Source: a virus. From it: 22,595 bases of DNA. Location of the stretch: positions 1-22,595 of the IMG/VR virus record IMGVR_UViG_3300037852_000367; one strand, given 5' to 3'. Positions 2,313 through 8,474 of this stretch are shown piece by piece (within the stretch, counting starts at the first letter, position 1; each line of letters starts with the position of its first letter). A program made the translations under genes and the position numbers. The notes below the pieces were generated by a model, which saw only the letters and a program-made list of their open reading frames with translations, was not told the origin of the DNA and made no database searches.

Positions 2313-4657
2313 AACGGCGGGTCCTCTTCTTCGTCTATCGTCCGATCACGCGGACCGAAATCACTAAATTGGGGCTCACGGGTACCGAAGCGGTCGTCGT
2401 ATGACTTTGGCGGCTCTTGGGTTCCGGCCTGGAGTTGGGCGGCGGTGAGCGCGGCCTCATAGGTGGCGCCGTCGCCGAAGTAGAGCGCGTGTTTGGCGTT
2501 GGGAGGGCGGTACGTGGCGATGAATATCTCGCGCTGGCGAGCGTCGCCCTTAACGTAGCAACGAGTCGGCGCGCCGTGCAGCCGGAGCACCTTGCGCTCC
2601 CAGCCGATCTCGCGCATCACCTCACCGAGGCGGGCGTTATCGGTCTGCAGTCGGCGCTCGTTGGGCTTGTCGATGATGGTCCAGATGTCATCAGTGAATA
2701 TCTTGCCAACACGGTCCTTGAGCTGCCGATTTATCGTGCTGGCCCACGGCTCCTCGATACGGTGGAACTCTTGGACCTCGGCCGCCGCCACCCAGAGGGA
2801 CTCATCGAGGCGAATGCTCTCGCCCAGCGTTTCGTAGTGAGCGGCCTCGGCCCATAGTTGATCGCGGATGGCGATAAGCCCAGCCACGTTGAACCGCTTG
2901 CGCACGACAACGGGCCAGAAGCGGCGGTTGCCGGTACTGTCGCGCAGGAACGTCTCGACATTGGTCGTACCAAAGATGACGCACTGACGGGGCCAGTCTA
3001 TCGTGAAGTGACCGTAAGCCATCCTCCCGGAGTCCACGGTCTTGCTAAGGAACTTCTTGACCGCCTCGACGTCGCGCTTGCCTATACCCTCAAGTTCACT
3101 GACCTCGATGATCCAGCGCCCCGCCATCTCCTCTATAGCCTCGCGGTCTCGCGACCCGAGGTGCACCGAATCGCTGAACCACTCGCGGCGCGGGCACAGT
3201 GCGGCTAGCAGAGACGATTTGTCCGTGCCTTGGGTCGGGTCGACAAGGACGAGCATCTCGTCAAACTTGCACCCCGGATGACGCACGCGGCGCACGGCGG
3301 CCACCAGCATCAACCGGCTTATCGCTCGGTTGAGCTCGGTGTCGGCGACGTCCCCGTGGTCGATGAGCCACTTCTCGATCCTGGGGACACCGTCCCAAGA
3401 CAGGGATTTCAGGTAGTCGAGGACGGGATGGTAGGAGTTGCGCTGGCCAATGTCGATTATCGTCTCGTTGAATGCGGGAATGGTAGGTAGGAAGCCGAAG
3501 CGTCGGTTGATCTCGTGTGCCAGGAACACGTTCTCCCGGTCGCTGACCAAGCGAAGGGGTCCGGCTCCATTGAGCTTATCGCGCCCTACGAACATATCGT
3601 ATGTGACGCGGACGCCCATCTGGGTCAGCGCGCGCTCGATGTTGGTAGGATTGTCCTTGAGCACGGCACCGCTCTTCGGGTTGCGCAACCAGTCCTTATC
3701 GACGGCGTCGCGGGCCTTGCGAAGTTGTCGGTTGGCGTAGCTTGCCGGGTTGCCCTGGTCCCGCACGTGCTGGCTGAGCCCATAGGCTGAATCCGTGAGA
3801 AATGGGTATATTTCATCGTCGTTCCATCCGCGGCGAATGAGCATACAGATGACGTACCACAGCATCTTGGAGCGGTCGTTGGAGTGCTCGGATGCGTCGC
3901 CCGACTTGATAAGCTTGCGGAGCTTGGCGTCGAGACCTTCGAGCGTGTGCGCGTTGTCGCCGAACGCGGGTTCGTCGGGCGGCGGCAGGCTCCCGTCATC
4001 GGGGTAGTGCGGCACTGGGTCGCGGTCCAGGGAGAATGTCGTCTCCCAGTCGGCGTCGACGACACGCGCCAACATCGGCCGACGACCCTTGGCCACTTTC
4101 ACGACGTTGGGGACGTTGATCGTGCCGGGCAGCCGCATCAGCCGGTTGTGGTTCTGCACGGAGTCCGCGCCGACGTTCCGCTGGATCGCCTTGTTAACAG
4201 ATTCAGCGCGGTCGCCGTACTCGGAGAGCGGCGTTGGCGCGTCGAGCCGCCAGAAACCCTGGAAGCCACCTCCGGAAAAGATGATGAGCGGCGGTGGGGG
4301 TTCGAGCGAGCGTAAACGCGCTAGGAGGCTGGCTTCCTGCTCGGGGTCCTGGGTTCCAGGTAGATCCAGATCGACATAGTGCGAGATGACGTGGGTTATC
4401 TGCTCCTTGGTCGGCGACGTTCGGATCGACGGATCAGCGCGGTTAGCCGAGAAGTACAGGTTCCAGATACCCTGCCACCCGTCGATGAACGCAGCGGCCG
4501 TGGTTTCCTGGCCAGGATAGAAGACGCGGGCTTCGGTCTTCGCTCGCTGCTCTTTGGCTTTGGTGGGTTCAATCGCGACGACGACCCAAGGTCCAGCGGG
4601 CTCCCAGCGGGCTAGCCAGTCGAGTGCTGCGGGCGTATCGCCCCGGAGCGGTTCCAA
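2309..4657 (-). CDS. Bifunctional primase-helicase (AEP/RepB-like primase plus VirE helicase)
   Basis: This 782-residue protein starts with TTG at 4657, with AGGAG 7 bases upstream. The N-terminal half resembles archaeo-eukaryotic-type primases of plasmids and phages: VDLDL (95-99) supplies the DxD metal ligands, SGGGFQGFW (128-136) and QNHNRLMRLPGTIN (168-181) match the later motifs. The C-terminal half is a VirE/superfamily 3-type helicase: SWDGVPRIEKWL (420-431), P-loop TQGTDKSS (475-482), Walker B WIIEVSE (515-521), GTTN (563-566) and TGNRRFW (575-581). Together these would prime and unwind DNA at the phage origin. The P-loop has Asp479 where Gly is usual before the Lys. The gene lies just left of the GTTAC array and is the centre of the replication unit. 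Confidence 0.88.
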   Translation of the reverse strand: MEPLRGDTPAALDWLARWEPAGPWVVVAIEPTKAKEQRAKTEARVFYPGQETTAAAFIDGWQGIWNLYFSANRADPSIRTSPTKEQITHVISHYVDLDLPGTQDPEQEASLLARLRSLEPPPPLIIFSGGGFQGFWRLDAPTPLSEYGDRAESVNKAIQRNVGADSVQNHNRLMRLPGTINVPNVVKVAKGRRPMLARVVDADWETTFSLDRDPVPHYPDDGSLPPPDEPAFGDNAHTLEGLDAKLRKLIKSGDASEHSNDRSKMLWYVICMLIRRGWNDDEIYPFLTDSAYGLSQHVRDQGNPASYANRQLRKARDAVDKDWLRNPKSGAVLKDNPTNIERALTQMGVRVTYDMFVGRDKLNGAGPLRLVSDRENVFLAHEINRRFGFLPTIPAFNETIIDIGQRNSYHPVLDYLKSLSWDGVPRIEKWLIDHGDVADTELNRAISRLMLVAAVRRVRHPGCKFDEMLVLVDPTQGTDKSSLLAALCPRREWFSDSVHLGSRDREAIEEMAGRWIIEVSELEGIGKRDVEAVKKFLSKTVDSGRMAYGHFTIDWPRQCVIFGTTNVETFLRDSTGNRRFWPVVVRKRFNVAGLIAIRDQLWAEAAHYETLGESIRLDESLWVAAAEVQEFHRIEEPWASTINRQLKDRVGKIFTDDIWTIIDKPNERRLQTDNARLGEVMREIGWERKVLRLHGAPTRCYVKGDARQREIFIATYRPPNAKHALYFGDGATYEAALTAAQLQAGTQEPPKSYDDRFGTREPQFSDFGPRDRTIDEEEDPPF

Positions 4658-4666
4658 CGGAAGCTC

Positions 4667-4954
4667 CTACGCCGCTACCGTTTCCTTGTTCACAATGGGA
4701 TAGAGTTGCCACCGCGCATCATCACGCAGGATAAAGTAGACGCGGTTGCCGTCTGGCCCGTCGAAGGGGACGCACTCGTGCTTGCGGAGCCAGCGGCGGA
4801 GGGCGCTGACGAGGCTTTCGTCCTCCTCGGCGTAAGACGAGATTGCGGCGAGGATCGTCTCGTTGCCCTCGATCGCGGCCGTGACCACTTGGCGTGGCGT
4901 CACGTGAGTGTTGCGGAAAGTTTCCCACCAAGCCCCGACGATCTGCTCGGACAA
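4667..4954 (-). CDS. Small replication-associated protein resembling a helicase-primase C-terminal domain, 95 aa
   Basis: The start is TTG at 4954 with GGAGG five bases upstream; the stop lies 9 bases before the primase start. The pattern AWWETF...VTPRQVV...LVSALRRWLRKHECVPFDG...ARWQLYPI resembles, from memory, the small winged-helix-like domain often fused to the C-terminus of phage helicases or primases (W-W, VTA, R-x-L/W-L and a final W-x-L). Here it is a separate gene directly in front of a VirE-type primase-helicase, so it may work with that protein or bind the adjacent repeat array. It is the first gene of the leftward unit. The assignment is tentative. Confidence 0.65.
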   Translation of the reverse strand: MSEQIVGAWWETFRNTHVTPRQVVTAAIEGNETILAAISSYAEEDESLVSALRRWLRKHECVPFDGPDGNRVYFILRDDARWQLYPIVNKETVAA

Positions 4955-4976: not shown

Positions 4977-4996
4977 GCCCGCTTACTATAGCGGGC
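4977..4996. repeat. Inverted repeat around the leftward -10 box
   Basis: GCCCGC (4977-4982) and GCGGGC (4991-4996) form a perfect 6-bp dyad with an 8-base centre TTACTATA. The centre contains the leftward -10 element (TATAGT on the minus strand), so at DNA level it looks like an operator over the promoter rather than an RNA hairpin. Confidence 0.5.
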
Positions 4997-5013
4997 GGTG
5001 GTTTGCGGGTAAA
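4985..5013 (-). promoter_or_regulatory. Candidate sigma70-type promoter for the replication unit
   Basis: On the minus strand TTTACC (5008-5013) and TATAGT (4985-4990) are separated by 17 bases. Four of six -35 bases and five of six -10 bases match the sigma70 consensus. Transcription would begin near 4978, giving a leader of about 25 bases before the TTG at 4954. The element shares TTTACCCGC, spacing and GCTATA with the rightward candidate at 5396-5424. Confidence 0.5.
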
Positions 5014-5071
5014 TAGGTATTTATTTTCTGATCATCGTTTGGTTTTATGGAGCTAAAGTGGGGGTTACGTA

Positions 5072-5169
5072 GGTAACGGTAGGTTACGATAGCTATTAAT
5101 AGCCGAATAGGGGGTTACGCGGTTACGGGTTAACTTATTGATATTGCTTAGGCGTAACCTACCGTTACC
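5072..5169. repeat. 17-bp perfect inverted repeat inside the GTTAC array
   Basis: GGTAACGGTAGGTTACG at 5072-5088 recurs as its exact reverse complement at 5153-5169. Twelve bases of it (ACGGTAGGTTAC) occur again in direct orientation at 5311-5322. The arms flank a 64-base centre that holds the 12-bp palindrome at 5092-5103 and two more GTTAC copies. Confidence 0.7.
5092..5103. repeat. Perfect 12-bp palindrome GCTATTAATAGC
   Basis: The sequence is its own reverse complement and sits between the first two GTTAC groups. Its arms GCTAT/ATAGC recur in the palindrome at 8464-8475. A dimeric DNA-binding protein could use both, though one such palindrome alone would not be significant. Confidence 0.5.
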
Positions 5170-5395
5170 CGTAACTACCTATGTCGTACTCTTTGCCAAG
5201 AATTTGCGTAGCGTTATTTTCTTCTCTCTTTTATTAATATATAGGTTACGGGGGTAACAGTAGTAACGTTCAAGGGATTCTGCGGGTTTGAGCCGTAACC
5301 GCTGGACGTTACGGTAGGTTACTCACCTTCGCTGGTTGGGCGATCTTAAAGTCCCACCTTAACTTCCACCCCCTATCCCACCATAATCAAACGAC

Positions 5396-5424
5396 TTTAC
5401 CCGCCCCCGAACCCAAGCTATAAG
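5396..5424 (+). promoter_or_regulatory. Candidate sigma70-type promoter for the late unit
   Basis: TTTACC (5396-5401) and TATAAG (5419-5424) are spaced by 17 bases. The nine bases TTTACCCGC and the GCTATA junction are identical in position to the divergent promoter at 4985-5013. Transcription would begin near 5431, about 30 bases before the preferred start of the NusG-like gene. Confidence 0.5.
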
Positions 5425-6068: not shown

Positions 6069-6095
6069 TTTACAGGGGCTGGATTTTACTATAGG
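6069..6095 (+). promoter_or_regulatory. Weak promoter-like element before the terminase genes
   Basis: TTTACA (6069-6074) precedes TATAGG (6090-6095) by only 15 bases in the gap between the NusG-like and small terminase genes. The boxes resemble those of the two divergent promoters but the spacing is short. The rest of the 6060-6215 gap shows no clear terminator or small gene. Confidence 0.2.
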
Positions 6096-6215
6096 CGCTA
6101 AGGATTAGGGTGCGAAACTTCCCGCGATAATGGGGTCGAGAGCATCTGTTGTGTTTCTTTTGCGTGAATTCTGCGTCAAGGGATGCGGGACGCGCAACGC
6201 GCCTTTAAGGATTTC

Positions 6216-6701: not shown

Positions 6702-8474
6702 TTGCTGGGATTCCCGTTCGATTGGCGCAATCCCAATTATGAAGCGGTCTTCTCAGAGCGCATCAAGCGCCTTGAGCGGCTGCGCGCGGATCCTAGTCTG
6801 CTGGAACCGCTGAAGCTCTATTATCGGGATAATCCGGCGGATTTTGTTTCTGATTGGGGAACAACACTCGACCCGCGCAATGTGGAGCGCGGTCTTCCGG
6901 CCTTGGTGCCATTCGTGTTGTTCGAGCGTCAGGTCGAGTGGATCGATTTCGTCATCAAGTGCTGGCGTGACCAGCGACCAGGCATCACCGAGAAGAGTCG
7001 CGACAGCGGTGTATCCTGGCTCAGCGTCGCGCTCGCGTGTACCCTTTGCCTGTTCCACCGCGGCCTCGCTGTGGGCTTCGGGTCGCGCAAGGAGGAATAC
7101 GTCGACCGGATCGGTGACCCCAAGTCGCTGTTCTACAAGGCGCGACTTTTTATGGACGAACTGCCGGTTGAGTTCCGTATGGGTTGGGAATCCGATCGTC
7201 ACGCCCCGCACATGCGGATCATGTTCCCGCAGAGCGACTCGATCATAACGGGTGAGAGCGGCGATAACATCGGCCGTGGCGATAGGAAGTCGATCTACTT
7301 TGTCGACGAAGCGGCGTTCCTGGAACATCCGCTGATGATCGACGCGGCTCTTAGCCAGACGACCAACTGCCGGCAGGACGTGTCGACGCCCAACGGTCTG
7401 GGCAATCCGTTCGAGCAGAAGCGCCACGCGGGGAAGATAGAGGTCTTCACCTTCCACTGGCGCGATGACCCGCGCAAGGACGACGGTTGGTACGCGAAAC
7501 AGGTCGCGGACATTGACAATCCGATCATCGTCGCCCAGGAGCTCGACATTGACTACGCGGCCTCGGTCGAGGGTGTCCTAATCCCGCACGCCTGGGTGCT
7601 GGCCGCGTTCGATGCGTGCGAGAAATTGGGCATCGAGCCTAGCGGCGAGAGCGTAGGCGCACTGGACGTGGCCGACGAGGGCGGCGACCTGTTGGCTTTC
7701 GCCGTGCGTCACGGCGTCGAGGTCAAGTGGCTGGAGGAGTGGCCCGGCAAGGGTGCGGATATCTTCAAGTCGGTGGAGCGCGCGTTCCGCATTTGTGACC
7801 ATTTCGGACTCGAAGGATTTCGCTACGATTCTGACGGACTCGGCGCCGGGGTACGCGGCGACGCTCGTGTGGTGAACGTCCAGCGTGGTTCGGCTGGTCA
7901 ACCTAAGATCAGCGCGACGCCGTACCGCGGCTCGGGCGCAGTGTGGAACCCCGATGGCCAGGACGTGCGCGGTCGCAAGAACAAAGACTTCTTTGCCAAT
8001 TGCAAGGCCCAGAGTTGGTGGGCTCTGCGGGAGCGGTTTCGTAAGACGCACCGTTGGATCGTGGGCGACGAGGACGGTGTCAAGGTGCGGTGTAGCCCGG
8101 ACGAGATCGTCTCGCTGTCCGCCACGATCGACCAGGGTGATAATCCTAGGATGCGGTTGAAGCTGGCAGCCGAATTGAGTCAGCCGACATTCGCTACCAC
8201 GGCAGTCGGGAAGATCGCTATCGACAAGGCACCGGAGGGCACGAAGTCGCCGAACCTGGCCGATGCGGTCGTGATCGATTTCGCGCGAGGTCTGGGCGAG
8301 ATGAAGATATCCGAGGGATTGATGACGCGGGCTCGCGTTGCTACGGTCGTTACTGCGATGCAGCCGACCGAAGGCGCGCAGAAGCCGGTCAGTGGCTCGG
8401 GGCTGTATGTGTCCAATGCGTTATTGTATCGAGCCCGCGATCCGCAGGGGGCCGGTAAAGTAGGCTATCGATAG
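6702..8474 (+). CDS. terL: Terminase large subunit (ATPase plus nuclease)
   Basis: This 590-residue protein pumps DNA into the prohead and cuts concatemers. The ATPase half shows an adenine/Q-type segment FERQVEWIDF (74-83), the deviant phage Walker A KSRDSGVSW (98-106), Walker B SIYFVDEAAF (197-206) and the coupling motif STPNGLGN (228-235). The RNase H-like nuclease half shows acidic clusters at GALDVADEGGD (319-329), FRYDSDGLGAGVRGD (373-387) and SPNLADAV (516-523), the usual three metal-ligand sites. Start is TTG at 6702, four bases after the small subunit stop, with GAGGG upstream. Length is normal for the family. The stop codon lies inside a 12-bp palindrome. Confidence 0.93.
   Translation: MLGFPFDWRNPNYEAVFSERIKRLERLRADPSLLEPLKLYYRDNPADFVSDWGTTLDPRNVERGLPALVPFVLFERQVEWIDFVIKCWRDQRPGITEKSRDSGVSWLSVALACTLCLFHRGLAVGFGSRKEEYVDRIGDPKSLFYKARLFMDELPVEFRMGWESDRHAPHMRIMFPQSDSIITGESGDNIGRGDRKSIYFVDEAAFLEHPLMIDAALSQTTNCRQDVSTPNGLGNPFEQKRHAGKIEVFTFHWRDDPRKDDGWYAKQVADIDNPIIVAQELDIDYAASVEGVLIPHAWVLAAFDACEKLGIEPSGESVGALDVADEGGDLLAFAVRHGVEVKWLEEWPGKGADIFKSVERAFRICDHFGLEGFRYDSDGLGAGVRGDARVVNVQRGSAGQPKISATPYRGSGAVWNPDGQDVRGRKNKDFFANCKAQSWWALRERFRKTHRWIVGDEDGVKVRCSPDEIVSLSATIDQGDNPRMRLKLAAELSQPTFATTAVGKIAIDKAPEGTKSPNLADAVVIDFARGLGEMKISEGLMTRARVATVVTAMQPTEGAQKPVSGSGLYVSNALLYRARDPQGAGKVGYR

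Follow-up and report, generated by a model that had tools for sequence, protein, structure and literature searches.

A clustered GTTAC array beside a phage PrimPol-VapE helicase gene as a probable iteron-type replication origin

Genes around the array

The DNA analysed here is a viral fragment of 22,595 bp from IMG/VR, referred to below as the window; all window positions refer to this full stretch. A dense array of GTTAC pentamers lies between outward-facing promoter-like sites, with genes for a 95-aa protein and a large helicase on the minus strand to its left and genes for a NusG-like protein and the two terminase subunits on the plus strand to its right (Table 1).

Table 1. Features of the array locus in the window
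Feature	Position	Strand	Remark
PrimPol (RepB'-like) + VapE/SF3-like helicase + C-terminal winged helix, 782 aa	2309..4657	-	proposed initiator
Predicted C-terminal winged helix of the helicase, about residues 637-704	2546..2749	-	proposed site-reading domain
95-aa protein	4667..4954	-	homologues in the same place in L004 and L007
Promoter-like TTTACC-N17-TATAGT	4985..5013	-	before the 95-aa protein and helicase genes
GTTAC array	5064..5322	both orientations	proposed iteron array of the origin
Array sites 1-8 (GTTAC/GTAAC)	5064+, 5073-, 5083+, 5114+, 5122+, 5154-, 5164+, 5171-		
Inverted repeat, left arm, exact 17 bp	5072..5088	+	two sites in the arm
Inverted repeat, right arm, exact 17 bp	5153..5169	-	two sites in the arm
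Pyrimidine tract, then AT-rich: TTTATTAATATATA	5214..5243	none	candidate unwinding element
Array sites 9-14 (GTTAC/GTAAC)	5245+, 5254-, 5263-, 5295-, 5308+, 5318+		
Promoter-like TTTACC-N17-TATAAG	5396..5424	+	before the NusG-like gene
NusG-like protein, 202 aa	5451..6059	+	divergent neighbour of the array; conserved in L004 and L007
terS; terL	starts at 6183; 6702	+	right of the NusG-like gene

An earlier note on this DNA placed the array beside a primase-helicase gene, and this description holds: the array lies 411 bp upstream of a gene whose 782-aa product matches VapE (PF05272, E 2.5e-69) and DNA helicase and primase families in PHROG, including the phage primase family PHROG 1829. The AlphaFold2 model of the protein is confident (mean pLDDT 85.5). 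Its best solved match is 7pds, SaPI PriRep1 with dsDNA (sequence E 6e-39, fold E 7e-26), and the C-terminal region of NrS-1 polymerase also matches the model by fold (6k9c, E 4e-10). Rather than a TOPRIM primase domain of the P4 alpha type, the N-terminus has a fold match to the RepB' primase (3h20). Near the C-terminus the model predicts a winged helix, made up in order of a helix (637-646), a strand (651-654), two helices (655-662 and 671-683) and two strands (687-693 and 696-703), with pLDDT about 90. The helicase gene is directly followed, on its own strand, by one for a protein with a MUG113/T5orf172 (GIY-YIG-like) N-terminal domain (1362-2312, minus).

The 95-aa protein is modelled as four helices and a two-strand hairpin and looks winged-helix-like by inspection; a fold search of the PDB with this model gave no convincing match. 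The 202-aa protein is called NusG-like through its homologues, for which the PF02357 profile matches at E 8e-10 in L004 and 2e-11 in L007, the two loci closest to the window by helicase; in the window's own protein the match is at E 0.003, below the curated cut-off. A NusG/RfaH-like gene stands divergently beside the proposed origin in the window and in both relatives (3567-4175 in L004, 3310-4014 in L007), and its product is possibly a phage antiterminator.

The pentamers and flanking elements

The array contains 14 exact copies of GTTAC/GTAAC, and just 20 others occur in the remaining 22.3 kb. The earlier note had considered equal density elsewhere in the genome as a reason to abandon its proposal, and the density is clearly not equal. 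Among all pentamers and hexamers of the window, GTAAC is the most strongly clustered (log10P -19.7); in 60 dinucleotide shuffles, each scored by whichever pentamer clustered most, the strongest value was -8.1. When positions 5000-5400 were shuffled locally in 2000 trials, copies averaged 2.3 with a maximum of 8. The extended site has the heptamer consensus GGTTACG, which is perfect in seven copies and has one mismatch in five.

From left to right the sites are spaced by 9, 10, 31, 8, 32, 10, 7, 74, 9, 9, 32, 13 and 10 bp, so that they form groups of 3, 2, 3, 3 and 3, with neighbours 7-13 bp apart within groups and gaps of 31-32 bp between most groups, the exception being the single gap of 74 bp. 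The near-helical spacing claimed earlier is thus found inside groups, but over the whole array phasing is weak (Rayleigh p 0.017 at period 10.0 and 0.54 at 10.5). The predicted inflection of GC skew near the array was not seen, which in a fragment of 22.6 kb is a weak test. A search of phage DNA with the array region as query gave no meaningful match.

The exact 17-bp inverted repeat described earlier is confirmed; its stem encloses a loop of 64 nt, and the DNA fold of 5060-5180 has a z of -6.4. Since each arm consists of two sites, the repeat follows from the presence of paired sites in both orientations. The 74-bp gap, with eight sites to its left and six to its right, is filled by a pyrimidine-rich tract and an AT stretch. 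The tract (19 nt with one mismatch) is longer than in 100 of 100 shuffles, while the AT content of 5214-5243 alone is not significant; the window thus has multiple short repeats near a candidate melting region, marked by its pyrimidine tract.

The two promoter-like sites beside the array face outward, and the one at 5396-5424 is a 70% inverted copy of the one at 4985-5013, forming a 27-nt pair around the array. This promoter pattern occurs three times in the window (0.13 expected). The third promoter-like site of the TTTAC-N-TATA design (6069-6093, plus) lies upstream of terS. L007 has similar sites, one on the minus strand (4063-4089) and one on the plus strand (4606-4633). The array had been described as a divergent control region: matched promoters do stand on both sides of it, but no array site overlaps them, and the -35 elements are ~50 and 74 bp from the nearest sites.

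Arrays and site words in related helicase loci

Among 56 IMG/VR relatives of the helicase, the word that clusters most in a locus begins very often at the helicase stop codon. A larger set was dereplicated at 90% helicase identity to 103 loci. In each of these, the 5-7-mer with the strongest clustering was counted as a hit when the midpoint of its cluster fell at -60 to +400 of the helicase stop codon. Hits were obtained in 74 of the 103 loci, with 5.7 expected under uniform placement, and in 62 of the 76 loci with strong clusters (4.3 expected). The ends of 189 other long ORFs in the same loci, used as a control, gave 7 (9.9 expected). The pattern extends to isolate phages, with seven copies each of GGCAAC in Javan405 and GGAACA in ACF1 at the helicase stop. 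A prophage-like locus of Sphingomonas koreensis (L168) is also among the relatives. Across 64 arrays, AT enrichment is significant in only 8, and a pyrimidine or purine tract is significant in 13 (3.2 expected).

In 29 of the 103 loci the strongest cluster lies elsewhere, and these include the window, L004 and L007. All three use GTTAC, and all three have the array upstream of the helicase gene rather than at its stop, in a common cassette order of NusG-like gene, array, small ORF and helicase. Arrays also adjoin VapE helicases that are short and in which no PrimPol domain was recognised (L034, 398 aa; L012, 511 aa), which argues that the array goes with the helicase. In Staphylococcus aureus phage 2638A (L074) no simple short-word array was found at the VapE helicase; longer repeats around CGTCCCTT/AAGGGACG and AAGGCACG are present downstream of it, at 4077-4420. 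Phage BIP-1, which was used in the pRN1 paper (PMC4234260), has no pentamer array at the 3' end of its replicase. Because that replicase, read by eye as a D5-like primase-helicase, is not a close relative, BIP-1 neither supports nor contradicts the association.

The word itself differs among relatives, which use GTTAC, GTTCC, GGTAAG, GGTCAC, GGTACT, GGGTCC, GGCAAC, GACAGT and others. In L010 and L011, whose helicases are 80% identical, the array flanks can be aligned and are largely conserved, and the five sites GTTACCCC/GTGACCCC/GTTACCCC/GGGGTAAC/GGGGTAAC of L010 appear at homologous positions in L011 as GTAGCCCC/GTGGCCCC/GTAGCCCC/GGGGCTAC/GGGGCTAC. The winged helices of this pair differ at a few positions, including R/H and T/I. 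A second pair, L163 and L167 (helicases 78.5% identical), has GTTAC sites replaced by TGGACA-type sites at homologous positions. Further close pairs also have different words; their flanks align poorly, and so positional homology is less sure. Judging from these alignments, a joint change of sites is what would be expected if one protein reads them all, and neither chance nor a structural element would readily account for it. That many relatives keep the layout and differ in the word suggests that the helicase and its landing sites change together. Word class showed no clean mapping to single winged-helix residues, a comparison confounded by ancestry, and the divergence of the winged helix did not differ significantly between switched and unswitched pairs (p 0.07, with non-independent pairs).

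Origin reading, precedents and alternatives

We consider it probable that the array is the iteron-type replication origin of the phage and that the adjacent PrimPol-VapE helicase is its initiator. This reading, drawn from comparison of sequences, is supported because equivalent arrays adjoin the same helicase in most of about 100 relatives and because their sites switch word jointly. Counting against it are the lack of a GC-skew change at the array, the upstream position in the window, L004 and L007, the 29 loci with their strongest cluster elsewhere, phage 2638A, the low number of arrays with significant AT enrichment or tracts, and the poor fit between words and winged-helix residues. Of the candidate origin and control region put forward earlier, the origin has thus gained support, and the control region stands in part. 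The 95-aa protein had been suggested as a binder of the array; the helicase is the likelier one, since arrays occur beside helicases in loci that show no homologue of the 95-aa protein.

If the helicase works as SaPI Rep and Cch2 do (PMC7581432), it would read the GGTTACG sites through its C-terminal winged helix, and the initiators gathered by the 14 sites, placed in both orientations on either side of the pyrimidine/AT tract, would assemble as helicase rings around it. The anatomy of the array suggests that the tract would then melt and that the rings would unwind the DNA outward from it. The first primers would be laid by the fused RepB'/NrS-1-like PrimPol domain, as may be supposed from RepB', pRN1 and NrS-1. 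Because the array sits between outward-facing promoters, one can also speculate that the bound initiator tunes early transcription from them.

Phage P4 alpha is at once a primase and an SF3-like helicase and binds the origin through its C-terminus, with short iterons at ori and crr. The window's helicase differs from it in having an AEP PrimPol; the comparison with P4 is one of descriptions. T antigen of SV40 and polyomaviruses is an SF3 initiator that recognises GAGGC pentamers, which surround a melting region in both orientations; the likeness is only in how the two would work, and T antigen reads its origin with an N-terminal origin-binding domain. The P4 alpha primase is of the TOPRIM type (PMC4234260).

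The SaPI/PICI Rep origins (S. aureus pathogenicity islands; PriRep1, 7pds) share with the window a VapE-domain helicase, iterons beside the helicase gene and a C-terminal DNA-binding domain (PMC7581432), which in the window's helicase would be the predicted winged helix. In SaPIs the C-terminal domain of Rep acts on iterons just downstream of rep (PMC7581432). The window, from a tailed phage, differs in its RepB'/NrS-1-like PrimPol N-terminus and in its GGTTACG sites in both orientations; its array lies between divergent promoters and beyond a small ORF, upstream of the helicase gene, whereas in most relatives it is immediately downstream. Because of this upstream position, we regard the window array as working like a SaPI origin without filing it as one. 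SCCmec Cch2 is likewise an initiator helicase with short iterons next to its own gene, namely three direct 5-nt copies (AAGTG), with a C-terminal dsDNA-binding domain and a separate primase (PMC7581432); the window's 14 sites run in both orientations, and its PrimPol is fused to the helicase. ORF904 of pRN1 is a single chain with an AEP PrimPol, an SF3 helicase and a winged helix at the C-terminus (PMC4234260), and the pRN1 origin is reportedly a stem-loop that lacks iterons. NrS-1 polymerase also has a PrimPol fused to an SF3-like ring helicase, but only two recognition sites and no array are described for it (PMC7102993).

The comparative evidence from sequence favours the origin over four other readings. 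One is that the array is an operator or enhancer for divergent early promoters, read by the 95-aa protein or another regulator and without origin function. The outward-facing promoters on both flanks, with similar sites in L007, agree with this, as does the way in which the upstream type of array is accompanied by the 95-aa protein and by the NusG-like gene. We nevertheless think it unlikely: the array sites nearest the -35 elements lie upstream of them rather than over them, the model of the 95-aa protein lacks a convincing PDB match, and in most relatives the array is at the helicase 3' end and the locus yielded no homologue of the 95-aa protein. An operator role can, in any case, coexist with an origin role. 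Alternatively, the pentamers could be single-strand priming sites recognized by the PrimPol domain rather than duplex sites for the helicase. The NrS-1 PrimPol template TTTGGTTA shares GGTTA with GGTTACG (PMC8718748), and start sites of the SCCmec primase overlap helicase iterons (PMC7581432). This reading is very improbable given that arrays accompany VapE helicases without a recognised PrimPol domain and that their sites are in both orientations, and NrS-1 itself is reported with only two copies of its own site (PMC7102993).

The proximity of terS, which starts 0.9 kb from the array with terL following on the plus strand, raises the question of a packaging (cos/pac) region bound by the small terminase. 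Lambda provides a model, with terminase-bound repeats near terS. We give this only a slight chance, however, as the array is not conserved with the terminase genes: close TerL relatives (L064-L073) have no comparable GTTAC array, with four copies at most, and loci with arrays mostly have no homologue of the window's terminase nearby. A search of genome contigs with the window TerL found none. Finally, the inverted repeat of ~100 nt could be the functional element, as an origin of the pRN1 kind, with the pentamers incidental. Its 17-bp stem and 64-nt loop are near the pRN1 origin stem-loop in size (PMC4234260), its DNA fold has a z of -6.4, and stem-loops of this sort are what the pRN1 study proposes for AEP-SF3-winged-helix proteins (PMC4234260). 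Against this, each arm is made of sites, and DNA folding found a comparable stem in the window only and none in L004, L007 or L005, which keep arrays of short words; there is hardly any likelihood that the stem-loop is the origin. From this comparison, the stem-loop origin put forward for AEP-SF3-winged-helix replicases does not seem to be a general rule for such proteins.

Short-repeat origins beside a VapE-type initiator are already known from SaPIs. What appears to be new is the GTTAC array with its cassette upstream of the helicase gene, how widely phages show the pattern, and the switching of words. A literature search, covering few subscription papers, returned the SaPI, SCCmec, pRN1 and NrS-1 precedents and no description of arrays in VapE phages. 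If the array is the origin, as we favour, looking for the most clustered short word beside the helicase gene offers a rule for finding the origins of many VapE-helicase phages, most of them uncultivated. More tentatively, and with the balance somewhat against it, these phages may have a fast-evolving origin 'code', in which the winged helix and a dozen sites repeatedly switch word together, making the origins of close relatives mutually incompatible and perhaps allowing escape from satellites, superinfecting phages or defences that rely on the former word. L010/L011 and L163/L167 are natural pairs with related helicases and different site words, and with them it becomes directly testable how the specificity of an initiator can shift while its replicon survives.

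Additional repeats were observed at a few of the surveyed loci. In L142, L148 and L075 an extra element like ACGCATGCTAACGCGTATA lies past the array, downstream of the helicase, and in L036 AGGCGG occurs 18 times at 7878-8088, 1.7 kb downstream of the helicase and not at its stop codon.
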